Below the pieces are notes generated by a model. The model had not been told where the DNA came from, made no database searches, and saw only the letters and a program-made list of their open reading frames with translations. The translations under genes and the position numbers were made by a program. DNA of 19,345 nucleotides from Anaerolineales bacterium (GTDB taxonomy: Bacteria > Chloroflexota > Anaerolineae > 4572-78 > J111): assembly GCA_012032575.1 (NCBI GenBank), contig JAAUSP010000074.1, positions 1 through 19,345 of the forward strand, written 5' to 3'. How positions within the stretch are numbered: position 1 is the stretch's first letter; each line of letters begins with the position of its first letter. This document shows positions 7,054-12,623 of the stretch, one piece after another.

Positions 7054-8709
7054 TTAGTCCTCATCCACAACAGTTACTCCGGTGATTTCTGCTTTCATCA
7101 GCTTGAACTGACTCTCTCCTCGTCTTACCAAAAGCTCGTGCGCCCAATAAACTGAAATACCAGCTTCAACCCGGTAGATCATGATTTCGCCATAACTGGC
7201 CTTTTTTTCGCCTCTAAGCCGGGGAAGTGGCATAGGTTCTCCGGCTCGCAGCGCCTCAGCATCAAACTCAATCTGATTAAAAAAGGGGTCCAGCCGGCTG
7301 GCCAGAACACCGTCATTCTCCCGCCAGGTTATAAGCTGCTCAAGTATTTGACCACCAGTTAATACTTCCGCCTCAAACACTTCAAATTTCTCGGCCGGTA
7401 AATGGCGCTTCAAAGCGTCAAGGGGGGGGATGATTGCCAGCAGTGATACTTCAACCATACTTGACTCGGCAAAATCTTCCGCTTTTAATAATACTTCTTC
7501 CAGGGTTTGCCGGAGCGCCTGTAAAGCCTGACGCGTTTTTGAGTCTTTAGCCCGCATAGCCAAAGCTATGACAGCATCCTCATAATTTTCGGACGGCAAA
7601 GATAAAAGCGAATGAATGGTCTTGGCAGCATCAAGGACTCGCTTTTCAAAGCGCTGCTCGACCGAGGTCTGCGCTATTTCGCGCAGGGTGGTTTTTGGTA
7701 TGGAAGGAGCTTTTACCTCCTGCAAAACTTTGCGCCCACTCCACTTCTCCTCGACAATTCGTTGAATCATGGCTAACTGTTCGGCATCCGTAGATAAACT
7801 TGTAACCGGACGCAGTTGCTTTTCAGTAAGCTGCGCAGCTTCAACCAAATCTTGGATTGCTGGTGATAAATTCAAAAGGGCCAAATAGTTACGCACCATC
7901 CGGTCGCCGATGGCCCGCCCGGTAAAACTTTTAACCCGTTGTCCCACCAAAATCTGTAACTCGCGCTGGCTGGGCAACTTGATGGTGTTTTCGCCTGGAA
8001 CCCGGGTTCCCATCTCGATATTTAAACGCTCTTTTATCCGCTGCATGGAACGCGCTCGCGCCAGCGCCGGCAAATCAACTCGAGCGGCATTTTCCGCTTC
8101 CTGGCGTTGATGAATAATTTCTTCATCGTCCGGCAATGTTTCAACAATACATTTTACGCTATTGAATTCCGCATAACCCCGCTGCACCAAAAGATGATGC
8201 GCCCAGAAGCGCCGCTCGCCTTCACCCAAACGATACGCTGTCCGATCAGGCTGCTCTGGGTCATCAATACGATAAACATTTAAAGGCTGACGTAGCCCAA
8301 CCTCCTGAATAGATTGGGCCAGAGCAAACAGGCCGCTATCCTCAACAATTTCATCCTCTTCTTCAACCGGTCCTTTCTGTCGCGCCCCCAGAATCAAAAG
8401 AGCAACTGTATCGCCACTTTCGGCTCGTAACACCAGCTCCCGCATCGCTTCCGCCGGTGATATTGTTTTTTCGTGGATGGCCGTTCTCAAATCGTGGGGG
8501 AGTAAATGACGGGGTTGGGTAGGGTCAGGGGTAATCCGATCCAAATTTATTTCGTAAACTCTCTGGTCGGTTGGGCGAAATCCAATATCTATTCCAGACA
8601 TAGTGGAGGTCAACTGATCTATTACACTTCCCGGCCCTGGGGCAGTTTGCTCCAGCAGGGTTGCTTTTGTCCCCAGATTACGCTGGATGTTAATTTTTCT
8701 CCTGGCCAT
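7054..8709 (-). CDS. parB: ParB-like partition protein with duplicated motif region
   Basis: ParB family protein of 551 residues, unusually long (chromosomal ParBs are about 280-350). Visible parts: the start of the N-terminal domain (INLDRITPDPTQPR, 55-67); a ~55-residue insertion with an acidic run (115-124); the resumed domain (LAQSIQEVGLRQPLNVY, 130-146); the CTP-binding box GEGERR (162-167); ENAARVDL (206-213), matching the family ENxQRxDL box; and a helix-turn-helix centred on 245-282. The long C-terminal half is helical. The last 40 residues (512-551) resemble 159-190 but lack GERR. ParB binds parS, loads CTP and spreads as a clamp; ParA then moves the complex. The ATG at 8709 follows AAGGGGG and overlaps the parA end by 20 bases, indicating translational coupling. 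The gene itself contains a parS-like palindrome. Confidence 0.88.
   Translation of the reverse strand: MARRKINIQRNLGTKATLLEQTAPGPGSVIDQLTSTMSGIDIGFRPTDQRVYEINLDRITPDPTQPRHLLPHDLRTAIHEKTISPAEAMRELVLRAESGDTVALLILGARQKGPVEEEDEIVEDSGLFALAQSIQEVGLRQPLNVYRIDDPEQPDRTAYRLGEGERRFWAHHLLVQRGYAEFNSVKCIVETLPDDEEIIHQRQEAENAARVDLPALARARSMQRIKERLNIEMGTRVPGENTIKLPSQRELQILVGQRVKSFTGRAIGDRMVRNYLALLNLSPAIQDLVEAAQLTEKQLRPVTSLSTDAEQLAMIQRIVEEKWSGRKVLQEVKAPSIPKTTLREIAQTSVEQRFEKRVLDAAKTIHSLLSLPSENYEDAVIALAMRAKDSKTRQALQALRQTLEEVLLKAEDFAESSMVEVSLLAIIPPLDALKRHLPAEKFEVFEAEVLTGGQILEQLITWRENDGVLASRLDPFFNQIEFDAEALRAGEPMPLPRLRGEKKASYGEIMIYRVEAGISVYWAHELLVRRGESQFKLMKAEITGVTVVDED
7997..8012. promoter_or_regulatory. Candidate parS site B, inside parB
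   Basis: On the minus strand this reads TGGGAACCCGGGTTCC; the core GGAACCCGGGTTCC is a perfect 14-bp palindrome. It differs from sites A and C only at one central base. It encodes GTRVP in ParB. Confidence 0.55.
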
Positions 8710-9514
8710 TTAACCCCCTTGGCAAACCGGTTCGCTGCAAGACTTCTTTTCTCAGGGCACGGTACATATCCGCATAGCGTACAAACTCTGAACCCTCGCA
8801 GTAGACCAGGGGAACCTGGGCTTCCGATGACTCACGCACTCGCACCGAAGCGGTCACAGTGGTTTTAAAGACAAGCTCCCCGTAGGTTTCCCGGACTACT
8901 TCTTCTGTGGCCTGGTCATAAATGGTGCGAGGGTCAGTATTGTTGATCAGCAATCCCAACACTTTTAGGGTAGGATTATACCAGCGCTGGGCTGACTGAA
9001 TATATTCAATCGTATCTCCCAGAGCGCCACGTCCACCTGCGCCCGGGTCAACAGGTATCAAAACGTAATCGCTGGCAGCCAGGGCATTCATGGTCAACCT
9101 ATCCAGACTGGGAGGACAATCAATCAAAATCCAGTCTATTTGGTTGATATTATTAATCCGGTCAATATCGGTTTTGATGCGAGTCAGGCAACTGCGCAAC
9201 CTTAATTCCCCCCCCTCAATTTGGGTTTGACCACTCTTGATTGCCTTAAGACCATCATCAGCCGGAATGACCTGCAAATTGGCGAAGTTGGTAGACTGCA
9301 CCGTCGTTCCAATCATCCCATCCTCGATTAACACGGTTGACAAAGTCGCGTCACCGGCATAGACCCCAAAAAAAGCTTCGCCCAATGTTTTTTGCGGGTC
9401 AATGTCAATGCACAAAACTCGAAATCCAGCCTCAGTTAAAACACCAGCCAGATTAAAAGTTGTGGTACTTTTAGCCGAACCACCTTTAAGATTAGCCAGG
9501 GTTACTACAACCAT
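8690..9514 (-). CDS. parA: ParA partition ATPase
   Basis: ParA/Soj-type deviant Walker ATPase of 274 residues, the usual length for a chromosomal-type ParA without an N-terminal DNA-binding domain. It begins directly with the strand and deviant Walker A loop KGGSAKST (10-17, signature Lys10). The Walker A' strand is CIDIDPQKTLGEAFFG and Walker B is WILIDCPPSLDRL. ParA dimers bind the nucleoid with ATP and are released by ParB, segregating parS-bearing DNA. The ATG at 9514 follows AGGAAA. It lies 57 bases downstream of the initiator-like gene and overlaps parB, giving the order initiator, parA, parB in one apparent operon. A degenerate parS-like sequence lies near its 3' end. Confidence 0.93.
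   Translation of the reverse strand: MVVVTLANLKGGSAKSTTTFNLAGVLTEAGFRVLCIDIDPQKTLGEAFFGVYAGDATLSTVLIEDGMIGTTVQSTNFANLQVIPADDGLKAIKSGQTQIEGGELRLRSCLTRIKTDIDRINNINQIDWILIDCPPSLDRLTMNALAASDYVLIPVDPGAGGRGALGDTIEYIQSAQRWYNPTLKVLGLLINNTDPRTIYDQATEEVVRETYGELVFKTTVTASVRVRESSEAQVPLVYCEGSEFVRYADMYRALRKEVLQRTGLPRGLNGQEKN
8811..8826. promoter_or_regulatory. Degenerate parS-like site, inside parA
   Basis: On the minus strand this reads CGGAAGCCCAGGTTCC, matching 13 of 16 positions of sites A and C. One arm is intact and the other degenerate. It falls between sites B and C, giving site spacings of about 960, 810 and 1050 bases along the operon. It could be chance. Confidence 0.25.
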
Positions 9515-9571: not shown

Positions 9572-11023
9572 TTATTTACCTGCATCTATCAATCTGAACT
9601 CGACATTTACCGTTACACCAATCACATTTGACAAGGCGCGGCGCACAATATCACGCAAACGGTTCTCCAGCCAATCCTTAGCCATATCCGTTTGCACGCC
9701 CACAATATAATTGCCATTCTCCCGACCCAGGAGCGTCGTCCCCTGGATAATGGTGTCGTAAGTGGCGCGGGTCATTTGGGGGCGCAAGACCGACTGGGTT
9801 TCGGCCCAAATAGCCTCATTAACCGACGGAGGAGTCAGCGCAGGAAGCGAGTTTGTTGAACTGGGAACCTGGGTTCCCACTGCTTCATAGTCTCGATTTT
9901 CAACCTCTCGCTCGGACGATTGCTTTAAGCCCAAATCTACTTCGGCTTCATCGGCAAAATCCCGCAGAGCACGCACAAAAACTGCGCCTTGATTAATTTC
10001 AGGATCGGTATCTATCGCATCTACGGCTGTCTGAATAGCCGCCATATACAAATCCAGATGTTTGGGATGCAAAGCCGTTAGCATTTTATAAAACATTGCG
10101 CCTGAATGATGATCTTGGAGTAGTTCTTCAGTAAAACGAACAATGGGTTCCAAAACAGCCCGACGATTGCTCCGGTTTAAATTTGTTCTTTTGAGTTGTT
10201 TAATTAATATGTCAAGTTGGTTAACGTTCTTGCCGGATTCTACCGATTTACTGTCAGGTGAATTTGAATAGGGTAGATTTACATAACTATCTAAGCCAGG
10301 ATTATTCTGTTTCACGGCTGGCGGTAAATCGGAACTATCTGGATTTACAGGCCCTTTATGTAAATCCGCTGGCCTCGGATTAGCAAGGTGAGGTAATTCC
10401 AAATTCTTTTGATTTACATAACGTAAATCGGCTTTTTGCGGTTCACGATAATTGGCCGATATTCTAGGTAAATCCAAATTGTCGCTTCTTACGGGTTCAG
10501 TAACACGATAGGTTTCCAGGCCCAATTCACCCTGTTGCAACCGCAGCAATTCAACCTGCTGCTGTAACCGGGCTTCGTCTTCGGGCACAACCGGGTCTTC
10601 CATAACGATTTCAAGCAAAAAGCCAACCCGCCGGGTTTTGCCGTTATAGGTTTCGTAGGCATAGCGAACTCGAGGGATAAAAAGAGAGAGATATTTAGCT
10701 TTTTCATCACTGGGGACGATACTGCGCCAGGGTTTATCGTTGGGGATAGGCTCATGTTTCAACCAACTGGCCACAGTCTCTTCGTGAACATCGAGCATTT
10801 CCGCCAGATCCCGCCAGCTACAGATGACTCGCTTGGTGCCATCACCCCGTCGAGGGGCGTCTATACATAAGCCACGCAGAAGGATCACCAAACACCAGCG
10901 TTCGGGACCAAGCCGGGGTAACCATTTTTGAGCGGAATAGAGACTGACCGGAACAGCGCGTTCGGGGGTAACGATGGCCGCTCGGGCGCTTAAATATACC
11001 GGATGTATTGACAGGTCAGACAT
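9572..11023 (-). CDS. Replication-initiator-like protein with C-terminal DnaA domain I
   Basis: A protein of 483 residues. Residues 30-130 form a helical N-terminal domain with a helix-turn-helix at about 66-91 (WRDLAEMLDVHEETVASWLK), like plasmid or phage initiators. Residues ~150-270 are a low-complexity Pro/Asn/Ser/Asp linker. Residues 270-365 are helical. Residues 405-483 align with DnaA domain I: IWAETQSVLRPQMT, the strand NYIVGVQTDMAKDWLENRL, and the ending GVTVNVEFRLI. DnaA domain I recruits DnaB helicase and mediates self-assembly. No AAA+ or DnaA domain IV DNA-binding region is present, so this is not DnaA. The proposed role, binding the iterons in its own gene and recruiting helicase, is inference. 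It is the first gene of the apparent initiator-parA-parB operon. The ATG at 11023 has AAGGG about 8 bases upstream. Confidence 0.75.
   Translation of the reverse strand: MSDLSIHPVYLSARAAIVTPERAVPVSLYSAQKWLPRLGPERWCLVILLRGLCIDAPRRGDGTKRVICSWRDLAEMLDVHEETVASWLKHEPIPNDKPWRSIVPSDEKAKYLSLFIPRVRYAYETYNGKTRRVGFLLEIVMEDPVVPEDEARLQQQVELLRLQQGELGLETYRVTEPVRSDNLDLPRISANYREPQKADLRYVNQKNLELPHLANPRPADLHKGPVNPDSSDLPPAVKQNNPGLDSYVNLPYSNSPDSKSVESGKNVNQLDILIKQLKRTNLNRSNRRAVLEPIVRFTEELLQDHHSGAMFYKMLTALHPKHLDLYMAAIQTAVDAIDTDPEINQGAVFVRALRDFADEAEVDLGLKQSSEREVENRDYEAVGTQVPSSTNSLPALTPPSVNEAIWAETQSVLRPQMTRATYDTIIQGTTLLGRENGNYIVGVQTDMAKDWLENRLRDIVRRALSNVIGVTVNVEFRLIDAGK
9862..9879. promoter_or_regulatory. Candidate parS site C, inside the initiator gene
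   Basis: TGGGAACC-TG-GGTTCCCA, a perfect 8-2-8 inverted repeat and the best of the set. On the minus strand its 16-base core is identical to site A. It encodes GTQVP. It lies about 300 bases from the iteron cluster. Confidence 0.6.
10176..10210. other. AT-rich stretch beside the iterons, candidate unwinding element
   Basis: This 35-base stretch has only five G/C bases (about 86% A+T), including TTTAAATTTG and GTTTAATTAATAT. It ends 34 bases before the first iteron, inside the initiator coding sequence. The position, immediately next to an iteron cluster, is where DNA unwinding elements occur in iteron and lambda-type origins. It encodes part of an ordinary helical region, so the composition could be incidental. 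Confidence 0.4.
10245..10474. repeat. Iteron-like cluster: eight copies of GATTTAC/GTAAATC
   Basis: Exact heptamers start at 10245, 10276, 10342 and 10411 as GATTTAC, and at 10324, 10360, 10423 and 10468 as GTAAATC. Three copies extend to GATTTACATAA. Pairs form inverted repeats: 10324-10348 and 10342-10366 (7-11-7), and 10411-10429 (7-5-7). I found at least five scattered copies in the other 19 kb, so the density here is over 100-fold higher. Seven share a codon phase but lie on both strands, encoding Asp-Leu or Val-Asn; the eighth is out of phase (Ser-Lys-Ser). The repeat is therefore conserved as DNA rather than as peptide. Most likely these are initiator-binding sites. Confidence 0.6.
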
Positions 11024-11040
11024 GACCGGACCCTTGTAGA

Positions 11041-11082
11041 AGGTTACTCAAAAACGAGCCAGGTTAACTCAAACATCGAGCA
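11041..11082. repeat. Two tandem direct repeats in the initiator leader
   Basis: Adjacent imperfect copies: AGGTTACTCAAAAACGAGCC (11041-11060) and a second starting AGGTTAACTCAAACATCGAG (11061-11082). They differ by small indels. They lie between the presumed initiator promoter and its start codon, so they would be in its 5' leader. Candidate operator or initiator-binding site for autoregulation. Confidence 0.5.
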
Positions 11083-11108
11083 GCGAAGCAAGCTTGAGTG
11101 AATCTATT

Positions 11109-11138
11109 AATATAGTTGAATCAAGGTCGGCCTGAGAA
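11109..11138 (-). promoter_or_regulatory. Candidate promoter of the initiator-parA-parB operon
   Basis: Read on the minus strand: -35 TTCTCA (11138-11133), 18-base spacer, -10 TATATT (11114-11109). Initiation would be near 11102, leaving an untranslated leader of about 80 bases that carries the tandem repeats. The -35 is weak (4 of 6). It abuts the -35 of the divergent promoter with one base between them. Confidence 0.4.
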
Positions 11139-11139
11139 C

Positions 11140-11169
11140 TTGACAGAACTCACCTCTTTATGGTATATT
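11140..11169 (+). promoter_or_regulatory. Strong sigma70-type promoter of the small RNA
   Basis: Perfect -35 TTGACA (11140-11145), 18-base spacer, -10 TATATT (11164-11169, 5 of 6). It points away from the initiator gene into a short transcription unit closed by an intrinsic terminator at 11277-11306. Confidence 0.65.
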
Positions 11170-11196
11170 TAATCCCAGAAAGAGTAAGAGGTAGAA

Positions 11197-11265
11197 ATGA
11201 CAATCCTGCCTCGGATGGCGTCTCAGATGGCGGCAACCAATCTGAGTAACAACACAACCAACTAA
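11197..11265 (+). CDS. Possible 22-residue small ORF inside the small RNA
   Basis: ATG at 11197, 5 bases after AAGAGG (11186-11191), stop TAA at 11263. The peptide starts MTILPRMASQMAATNL and ends in an Asn/Thr-rich tail, with no hydrophobic toxin-like segment. Promoter, ribosome site and terminator are well placed for a tiny gene, but hairpins H1 and H2 overlap it, so the RNA itself may be the product. Coding status is uncertain. Confidence 0.3.
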   Translation: MTILPRMASQMAATNLSNNTTN

Positions 11266-11276
11266 ATCTTCAGAAT

Positions 11277-11306
11277 AAAGAGGCTCGCGGCAACGGGCCT
11301 CTTTTT
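11277..11306 (+). terminator. Rho-independent terminator of the small RNA
   Basis: AAAGAGGCUCG pairs with CGGGCCUCUUU (11277-11287 with 11294-11304), giving an 11-bp stem with one U-G pair, loop CGGCAA, and a T-tract at 11302-11306. Confidence 0.8.
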
Positions 11307-11324
11307 CTATCTCCGCGGCAAACC

Positions 11325-11350
11325 AATTTGGGTAAGTATAACCCTAAATT
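11325..11350. repeat. Imperfect inverted repeat in the intergenic region
   Basis: AATTTGGGT (11325-11333) faces ACCCTAAATT (11341-11350): nine complementary bases with one extra T and a 7-base centre. It lies between the small-RNA terminator and the AAA+ gene promoter. Possible protein site. The remaining bases to 11408 are AT-rich with no other clear signal. Confidence 0.35.
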
Positions 11351-11408
11351 AGCTTTACTCCAGGCCTTACTATCCAGGATTATAAACATATCTACATAAA
11401 ATGTCAAG

Positions 11409-11443
11409 AGTTACTTGTAACTTTGGGGGGTAGGTGCTATAAT
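11409..11443 (+). promoter_or_regulatory. Promoter of the AAA+/RHH operon with operator palindrome on its -35
   Basis: -35 TTGTAA (11415-11420), 17-base spacer, perfect -10 TATAAT (11438-11443). Initiation would be near 11450, about 27 bases before the start codon. The perfect palindrome AGTTAC-TT-GTAACT (11409-11422) covers the -35, a classic repressor position. The ribbon-helix-helix protein of the same operon is a natural candidate autorepressor (inference). Confidence 0.65.
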
Positions 11444-11476
11444 TACGCCTACGTTTCCCGGGGAGGTAACTTCTTC

Positions 11477-12276
11477 ATGCTCGACTTGAGTCCGCTAGGG
11501 TTGGTAGAGCCGCCTTTCTCGCTCTCGCCCGATCCGCGCTATTTTTACGTTTCTCTCCAGCACAAAGCTACTCTGGCTAAAGCCACTTATGCCATTGAGC
11601 AGCGGCAGGGTCTTTCGGTTATTTTTGGCGATGTGGGCGTGGGTAAAACCACTATTGCCCGCCGCCTGTATCAGGTCTATCGGGATCGTTCGGATTACCA
11701 CACGGCCTATATTCCCACGCCGCTTTTTCCCTCAGATTTTCAGTTTCTCAAAAGTATTTGCGCTGAATTCAACCTGAGTCCCAAACGCAGCAAATTGCTT
11801 CAGTTAGCCGCCTTTGAGGAGTTTTTAATTAAAGCGTTTCGGGATGACAAAAATATTTTGCTCATCATTGACGAAGCTCAGGGACTCATTGGCCCCCAGT
11901 TTGAGCTAATCCGCCAACTGCTGAATTTTGAAACAAATACTCAAAAGTTAATTCAAATTGTTTTGATCGGTCAGAATGAGCTGCGCAACAAGCTGCGGCT
12001 TAAGCGGGCGTTGGCTTCACGGGTGGCCACCGCTCGACGTTGGAGCCGCTCCATTTTGAGGACACCCGTTCCATGATCAATTTCCGGGTGATGGTGGCCG
12101 GACGCCAGGAATCTCTCTTTACCGAGGCGGCCCTGATCAGAATCTACAATTACAGCCGGGGGATGCCGCGCGATATTTGTGTGATCTGTTTGAATATTCT
12201 ACCCATCGCTATCCTGAATAAAGTATTAATTGTTGACGAGCCATTGGTTGAGCAAGTCATTGAGGAGTTGCGGTAA
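11477..12276 (+). CDS. ExeA/TniB-type AAA+ ATPase, frameshifted
   Basis: ATG at 11477 follows a strong Shine-Dalgarno (GGGAGGT, 11461-11467). The first frame (199 residues, stop 12074-12076) has Walker A GDVGVGKT (51-58), Walker B LLIIDEAQ (128-135) and a sensor-1-like VLIGQNELR (162-170). The family C-terminus (LEPLHFEDTRSMINFRV, LFTEAALIRIYNYSRGMPRDI) continues in the -1 frame from about 12040 to TAA 12274. A break between 12004 and 12040 is needed; one extra base after CGACG (12035-12039) gives RVATARRLEPL, the spacing normal for the family, and a protein of about 266 residues. I see no slippery sequence, so a mutation or assembly error is likelier than programmed frameshifting. The family includes GspA/ExeA and transposition ATPases; no transposase is nearby. 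Its stop overlaps the next start (TAATG). Confidence 0.8.
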
Positions 12277-12623
12277 TGACGGAGAAAAAAATAATAAGAG
12301 AGGGCCAGGGAACCTTTGCCCAGCTTTATGATGTGCAAGAAGAGTTAAGCCGGCGTAATACCAAACCCTTGGGACGCCCTCCCAAAAAGGTTCAGCGTAA
12401 ACCCACTACCGTCCATTTAACCAAAACCGAAACCAGGAATTTGAACAAATTGCACCTGTTAATTGGAGAGCAATTCTCGGTTAACCGGAGCGAATTGGTA
12501 GGCATAGCAATTGATACTTTAACGCTTTTATTAGAGGAAAAAGGTAAAAACGCGGTCGAAATTGGTCAGATACGGGATATAGAAACTTTTCGGCGCTTTA
12601 TTTTTGATTTTATGAAATCATAA
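12276..12623 (+). CDS. Ribbon-helix-helix DNA-binding protein
   Basis: A protein of 115 residues. Residues 30-40 hold a basic, AT-hook-like GRPPKKVQRK. Next is a strand RKPTTVHLTK and two helices (ETRNLNKLHLLIG and SVNRSELVGIAIDTL), the pattern of an Arc/MetJ/CopG-type ribbon-helix-helix domain at about 40-88. The last ~25 residues are acidic-helical. The start overlaps the AAA+ ATPase stop by one base (TAATG), implying coupled translation and suggesting the AAA+ C-terminal frame is really translated. Such proteins often autoregulate or bind replicon control sites; candidate targets are the palindrome at 11409 and the AT-rich inverted repeat overlapping this gene's own end. Confidence 0.75.
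   Translation: MTEKKIIREGQGTFAQLYDVQEELSRRNTKPLGRPPKKVQRKPTTVHLTKTETRNLNKLHLLIGEQFSVNRSELVGIAIDTLTLLLEEKGKNAVEIGQIRDIETFRRFIFDFMKS

Follow-up and report, generated by a model that had tools for sequence, protein, structure and literature searches.

Heptamer repeats within the rep gene

The stretch of DNA analysed here (19,345 nt of an Anaerolineales bacterium, assembly GCA_012032575.1, contig JAAUSP010000074.1; hereafter the window) encodes an initiator-like protein, Rep, next to a parA-parB pair and a divergent ATPase gene, and the part of rep that codes for the linker of the protein contains a cluster of GATTTAC/GTAAATC heptamers (Table 1). The bacteria carrying rep are a group of mostly uncultured Anaerolineae. 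Protein searches made with the window gene and with a member of clade C found 164 and 143 relatives, respectively, of which 120 were listed in each case. DNA was compared for the window gene and 11 orthologues (L001 to L010, from Anaerolineae or Chloroflexi records, and L044), the remaining relatives being assessed at the protein level. These genes are grouped in clade A (window, L001, L002, L003, L004 and L044), clade B (L005, L006 and L007) and clade C (L008, L009 and L010), and the reading frame of rep is open in all twelve.

GATTTAC occurs 14 times on the two strands of the window, for a whole-window chance expectation of 1.83, and eight of these copies lie at 10245-10474. The first-pass annotation of this DNA had reported eight exact heptamers in both orientations and two codon phases, with inverted pairs, and every one of these elements was found in place: the eight copies are all inside rep, four per orientation, seven of them sharing codon phase 0 and the copy at 10245 being out of phase with these, with inverted pairs at 10324-10348, 10342-10366 and 10411-10429. 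In synonymous shuffles of the window gene, with the protein and the codon usage of the gene held fixed, heptamers numbered 1.62 on average and 6 at most; eight were reached in 0 of 2000 shuffles, and the codon-shuffle null that the annotation had proposed as a check is rejected for this gene. In 300 shuffles, no 7-mer of any sequence occurred more than 5 times. The looser motif GRTTYAC has 9 sites in the window gene, with a shuffled mean of 3.17, and this number was reached in 0 of 500 shuffles.

Exact heptamers are spread unevenly over the clades. Clade A has 8 in the window (count reached in 0 of 2000 shuffles), 7 in L001 (0), 5 in L002 (0), 5 in L003 (6), 5 in L004 (2) and 3 in L044 (57); clade B has 4 in L005 (6), 2 in L006 (175) and 5 in L007 (5); clade C has 1 in L008 (538), 2 in L009 (5, despite a different main repeat) and none in L010 (2000). 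GRTTYAC is above its null in each of the nine genes of clades A and B (reached in 0 to 6 of 500 shuffles) and not clearly so in clade C (34, 48 and 92 of 500).

The repeats are conserved at the DNA level while the linker peptide drifts, as the first-pass annotation had suggested should be checked by alignment. Indeed, between clades A and B (nine genes), the rate at which identical residues use the same codon rises from 0.38 in the N-terminal domain to 0.65 in the linker and to 0.80 in the AT-rich part, and falls to 0.43, 0.29 and 0.35 in the parts that follow; peptide identity is 0.32 in the linker vs 0.72 in the N-terminal domain. This comparison relies on whole regions; rates for the motif columns, which were picked by eye, are not relied on. 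In the codon alignment, GAT alternates with GGT or TTA with TCA at several sites, so that D and G or L and S are exchanged and the DNA still reads GRTTYAC. Furthermore, the off-phase copy (GTAAATC over KS codons) is retained in seven of the nine genes. Of all heptamer clusters in the sampled DNA, the one in rep is the densest, both in genome G001 (0.8 Mb sampled; 7 copies, the next being an intergenic tandem repeat with 6) and in genome G002 (1.2 Mb sampled; 5 copies, the next outside rep having 3). A short, seemingly intergenic ATTTACG-like repeat in both orientations was also seen in G001 (L150 12100-12180, near 1.812 Mb of contig C1); it holds six GATTTAC copies within 237 bp, that is, the same heptamer in a different setting.

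The repeat and the predicted recognition helix of Rep differ together between clades. Clades A and B have in common the helix HEET[VI]ASWLK and the heptamer, and clade C has a different helix (HKRTLLRWFK or DKRTLHRWFE) and a different repeat, its linker-coding DNA having repeats of the GACAAAATGTCAC type, for the most part with a spacing of 33 bp (L009 has 14). Identity to the window, for clade C vs clade B, is 71-75% vs 57-61% for ParA, 55-58% vs 47-49% for ParB (L005 and L009 left out), 83-84% vs 80-81% for the ATPase and 55-59% vs 40-41% for a 115-amino-acid protein encoded next to it; for the whole Rep it is 47-49% in clade C and 50-53% in clade B. By eye, the helix-turn-helix of the clade C ParB and the RKPTTVHLT stretch of the 115-amino-acid protein are largely unchanged. 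Because clade C changes both the Rep helix and the repeat, the helix-turn-helix of ParB being largely unchanged, these comparisons point to Rep as the protein reading the repeats.

At the protein level, the helix could be assigned in 131 proteins to the classes HEET (115), KRTL (7) and HQ[ED]TL (2), with none in 7. In 126 proteins, QNVT-type units average 0.0 (at most 1) in the 118 of E type, which is the default class in this count, and 8.8 (2 to 14) in the six of K type; the two of Q type, with the helix HQ[ED]TLASWF, have none, and one of them (P0128) has about 20 VN...DL units. A tree was built from the 126 of 131 proteins with at least 420 amino acids, the five shorter ones, including one of K type (P0130), being dropped. 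When rooted on P0001, it nests the two Q-type proteins within the K type, with supports of 0.94 and 0.32, which weakly suggests two joint switches of helix and repeat, the branching order of three groups not being readable from an unrooted tree.

The 35-base stretch of 86% A+T described in the first-pass annotation was confirmed at 10176-10210 (30 of 35 bases). In all twelve orthologues the softest 45 bp of rep are located where the array ends, next to a AACGTTAAC box. Among the nine genes of clades A and B, only L007 deviates from this box sequence, with AACGTAAAC; clade C genes have two to four copies of the box, flanking the AT-rich part on both sides. AACGTT runs (peptide NVNVN) were also observed on the flanks of the AT-rich element in L008, L009 and L010, and likewise in proteins P0127 and P0128; they are possibly a single-strand site or a second initiator site.

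Rep domains and cassette neighbours

Rep is predicted from structure models to consist, in this order, of a winged helix, a disordered linker, five helices and a DnaA domain I. The N-terminal helix-turn-helix claimed in the first-pass annotation is supported by the AlphaFold models, Pfam giving only sub-threshold helix-turn-helix matches there. A Foldseek search with this domain ranked N-terminal domain structures of staphylococcal-type Rep proteins at the top, as weak matches. No Pfam RepA_N match was listed for the N-terminal domains of the window, L006 and L008 at E-values (E) up to 10, a scan limited by the HMMER filters, which drop most matches above about 0.1. The DnaA-domain-I-like module proposed for the C-terminus holds as well: it matches Pfam DnaA_N (PF11638, E 9.1e-8) and has the fold of a domain I. 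Among structures in BFVD, the best match to the model of the N-terminal domain was an initiation protein of Brevibacillus phage SecTim467 (347 amino acids, E 7.6e-3). SECTIM467_152 (345 amino acids) was guessed to be this protein, the identity between them not being established; it has an HTH_36 domain, matches a different PHROG, has no DnaA_N listed and gave no hhalign match to the N-terminal domain of Rep, and was rejected.

Table 1. Features of the rep locus in the window (coordinates in window positions; aa, amino acids; ORF, open reading frame)
Feature	Position	Strand	Basis or remark
parB, divergent, 551 aa	7054..8709	-	HTH_ParB, E 3.4e-11; after parA in loci compared
parA	8690..9514	-	AAA_31, E 2.9e-35; adjoins rep in loci compared
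rep, initiator-like gene, 483 aa	9572..11023	-	ORF; DnaA_N at aa 403-465; orthologues
DnaA domain I-like C-terminal domain, aa 401-478	9590..9823	-	Pfam DnaA_N, fold match
Five-helix middle domain (predicted), aa 261-360	9944..10243	-	AlphaFold model
AT-rich element, candidate unwinding site	10176..10223	.	86% A+T at 10176-10210; softest 45 bp of gene 10178-10223
AACGTTAAC box, peptide NVN	10220..10228	.	between repeats and AT-rich element
Array of eight GATTTAC/GTAAATC heptamers (iterons), 230 bp, in linker-coding DNA	10245..10474	both	motif count, codon shuffles
GTGAAACAG box, peptide VKQ	10307..10315	-	GTGAAA invariant in clades A and B (nine genes)
Winged-helix DNA-binding domain (predicted), N-terminal, aa 1-173 (confident about 28-166)	10505..11023	-	AlphaFold models
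Predicted recognition helix region HEETVASWLKH, aa 80-90	10754..10786	-	clade C counterpart HKRTLLRWFKH / DKRTLHRWFEH
Predicted counter-transcribed RNA promoter TTGACA-18-TATATT	11140..11169	+	11-of-12 match; pattern search positive in 7 of 11 upstream regions
Predicted antisense RNA against rep leader	11176..11306	+	ends in hairpin 11277-11304; fold z -4.06
Predicted rep promoter TTGACA-17-TATAAT	11379..11407	-	12-of-12 match; pattern in 11 of 11 upstream regions
AAA_22/TniB-like ATPase, two ORFs in different frames (11423-12076, 12040-12276)	11423..12276	+	
115-aa protein after ATPase	12276..12623	+	in 10 of 11 loci; PHROG transcriptional repressor, E 5.5e-4

The genes rep, parA and parB and the divergent ATPase gene are found together in all 11 loci compared (window and L001 to L010). 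The gene for the 115-amino-acid protein is seen in all of these but L003, which is cut by the contig end; this protein had no Pfam match at E 0.1 and is possibly a small DNA-binding regulator. Some frames of the cassette are broken or short. The ATPase of the window is split into overlapping open reading frames of 217 and 78 amino acids, a single frame of 266-284 amino acids being present in relatives, and this split represents a frameshift or an assembly error. In L003 (2490-3326, on a contig of a metagenome-assembled genome) parA appears as two frames of 109 and 158 amino acids, and in L005 (4535-5737) parB codes for only 400 amino acids vs 531-552 in complete relatives.

An antisense RNA is predicted in the leader of rep. 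Indeed, the region 10950-11520 contains four promoter-like sites vs 0.7 expected and one terminator-like hairpin (11277-11304) vs 0.5 expected, and a hairpin with a T-run is present in 10 of the 11 upstream regions, L003 being the exception. The RNAs predicted at seven loci (119-135 nt) fold better on average than their shuffles (z -2.4 to -7.1), part of this excess being due to the terminator hairpin itself; for L008 and L010, 2 and 4 of 200 shuffles, respectively, fold as well. A search of 10900-11500 against Rfam, at E up to 1, gave no match.

Genomic location and comparison with known systems

In a class-wide search, in which at most four candidates per genome were scored, full-length orthologues (E below 1e-97) were found in 11 of the 396 genomes sampled from the class and in 11 of the 25 of the order; the other listed matches covered the DnaA-domain part only. 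In viral contigs, 17 stretches fitted a search pattern and none was confirmed as a relative. Three records matched in the plasmid collection (Leptolinea and two Listeria DnaA matches) and two Listeria phage records in the phage collection, the latter by the DnaA-domain part only.

The contigs carrying rep measure 1.23 Mb in G001 (C5) and 1.89 Mb in G002 (C3), and hold 4 of 46 and 3 of 42 tRNA matches, respectively. In the sampled stretches, the rep contig of G001 has reciprocal best matches to the rep contig (23), the dnaA contig (15), C4 (12) and C5 (6) of G002, and the dnaA contig of G001 matches only the dnaA contig of G002 (28). This pattern favours a chromosomal location of rep combined with rearrangement; less probable alternatives are an exchange of DNA between replicons and an assembly error. 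DnaA is present besides Rep in all seven genomes tested, and ParB helix-turn-helix matches other than the one adjacent to rep were found in 10 of 11 genomes, G006 having only the latter. No clear sign change of GC skew was seen at rep in the sampled stretches of G001:C5 and G002:C3, and the dnaA contig G001:C1 showed no clear switch either, so that this check, proposed in the first-pass annotation, carries little weight. At fourfold sites of G002:C3, the skew is -0.21, -0.08 and -0.15 to the left of rep, and +0.02, +0.07, -0.01 and +0.04 at rep and to its right; swings as large occur elsewhere. A PrsW neighbour was found in four of 12 genomes of the family and in none of the four genomes without rep, so that no empty site was readable.

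The first-pass annotation had likened this locus to phage lambda O. The core of that comparison stands, with repeats and an AT-rich part in the linker of an initiator gene, but the closest layout is, by analogy, that of the staphylococcal RepA_N plasmids, and the cassette adds parA, parB, the ATPase and a predicted antisense RNA. In pSK41, the N-terminal winged helix of Rep binds four Rep boxes in the middle of rep, the origin DNA codes for the linker, and the C-terminal domain, made up of five helices, makes contact with DnaG; the rep leader also has an antisense RNA (PMC5703833). In the window gene the parts follow one another in this order too, the linker being followed by a predicted five-helix domain. 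It differs in the lack of a listed Pfam RepA_N match, which places it outside that family as Pfam defines it, in the added DnaA domain I, adjacent parAB and divergent ATPase, and in its host, an Anaerolineae bacterium in which it is probably chromosomal.

Lambda O has an N-terminal DNA-binding domain. Its origin lies within the O gene and consists of four inverted repeats and, after them, a 40-bp A+T-rich region (PMC5043065); likewise, inverted repeats and an AT-rich region lie inside rep. However, the window array consists of many dispersed 7-bp sites, whereas lambda has four 19-bp repeats, and the window system has instead a DnaA domain I, ParAB and a predicted antisense RNA. No match to lambda P was found among the window neighbours in the families scanned; the AAA_22 ATPase could be a helicase-loader partner of the lambda P kind.

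DnaA domain I interacts with DnaB in Escherichia coli and with DnaD in Bacillus subtilis (PMC6393240). Domain I of Rep shares 20 to 32 of 74 residues (27-43%) with its counterpart in the DnaA of seven genomes (30 of 74 for the window and G001), being no closer to the DnaA of its own host than to others, but the rep gene has no match to the AAA+ domain of DnaA. Further DnaA_N matches occur in G001 (6), G002 (several) and other genomes, some in open frames of about 242 amino acids. A related binding domain is joined to a DnaA domain I in hrd7_34450, on a complete 212-kb plasmid of Leptolinea sp. HRD-7 (AP024711), where genes for an AAA_22 ATPase and a small protein come before it; unlike in Rep, the order is reversed (DnaA domain I first), the protein has 295 amino acids and there is no obvious embedded array. 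No repeat family of more than four copies was seen on this plasmid among the 20 of 28 families listed. No published account of the system appeared among the papers listed in literature searches, which covered a minority of those matching.

Proposed mechanism and alternatives

We consider it likely that Rep is a plasmid-type initiator carrying its own origin within its coding sequence. From the repeats, their conservation as DNA and their joint change with the recognition helix, together with the soft DNA, the domain content, the cassette and the promoter-like sites, we infer that the N-terminal winged helix would bind the GATTTAC-type repeats in the linker-coding DNA, that bound Rep would open the AT-rich element beside the AACGTTAAC box, and that the five-helix and DnaA-domain-I parts would recruit either the replicative helicase or the loader of this helicase, allowing the origin to fire; ParA and ParB would partition the replicon, and the antisense RNA would limit rep expression.

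Several results weigh against this interpretation. For the exact heptamer, L006 and L044 are weak in the shuffle test. The softness of the AT-rich part beyond the synonymous null is modest: at the same place, 11 genes are matched in softness by 4 to 38 of 500 shuffles and L009 by 176 of 500, and when the softest place of each shuffled gene is taken instead, wherever it lies, the number is 7 to 363 of 500. Finally, the joint change of helix and repeat amounts to one, perhaps two, events, and is strong in direction rather than in number.

The foremost alternative, although unlikely, is that Rep is a chromosomal regulator binding its own gene, for self-control or for titration of replication factors, the array being an operator and not an origin. 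The cassette seems chromosomal, the rep contig of G001 sharing gene blocks with the dnaA contig of G002, the seven genomes tested have a DnaA besides, and an array inside a coding region could act as an internal roadblock. However, the AT-rich element, the AACGTTAAC box, parAB, the predicted antisense RNA and the Rep-like gene borne on a plasmid are left unexplained by an operator. It is very unlikely that the heptamers are instead the centromere (parS) of the neighbouring ParB. The parB gene does stand in the same gene row, and a conserved GTGAAACA box resembles half of the usual parS; yet in clade C the ParB helix-turn-helix region is, by eye, largely unchanged while the repeats and the Rep helix change, and the usual parS 16-mer, allowing up to three mismatches, was not found in 10 of 11 loci, the single weak match (L006) lying about 3 kb from rep.

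That the heptamers simply follow from a repetitive linker peptide (with DL and VN motifs), or from lineage-specific use of the 7-mer, is highly improbable. Seven of the eight copies share one codon phase and GATTTAC also forms the short intergenic repeat of G001 (L150), but synonymous shuffles never gave eight copies, the copy in the other phase is kept in most clade A and B genes, and residues are swapped while the DNA motif stays. A decayed, integrated plasmid replicon without present function has hardly any probability left: the frames of the window ATPase, L003 parA and L005 parB are broken or short, but that of rep is open in every orthologue and the DNA motifs are conserved between deeply diverged genes.

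Beyond a plasmid-type initiator with an embedded origin, we suggest only tentatively that the main chromosome may bear, across the order, a second, plasmid-type origin beside the normal DnaA system, equipped with an initiator, partition genes and an antisense RNA of its own, in which initiator specificity and the embedded origin switched together at least once.

If Rep works as proposed, the locus would extend replicons of this embedded-origin kind beyond Firmicutes and lambdoid phages, to bacteria for which genetics is scarce. Two repeat sequences and as many recognition helices among related clades would offer a natural experiment in the co-evolution of initiator and origin, and, if the lock-and-key relation of helix and repeat is true, one gene would carry both the specificity of the initiator and the origin. 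If chromosomal and active, the system would place two initiation systems on one chromosome, and it may be a starting point for vectors for the Anaerolineae.
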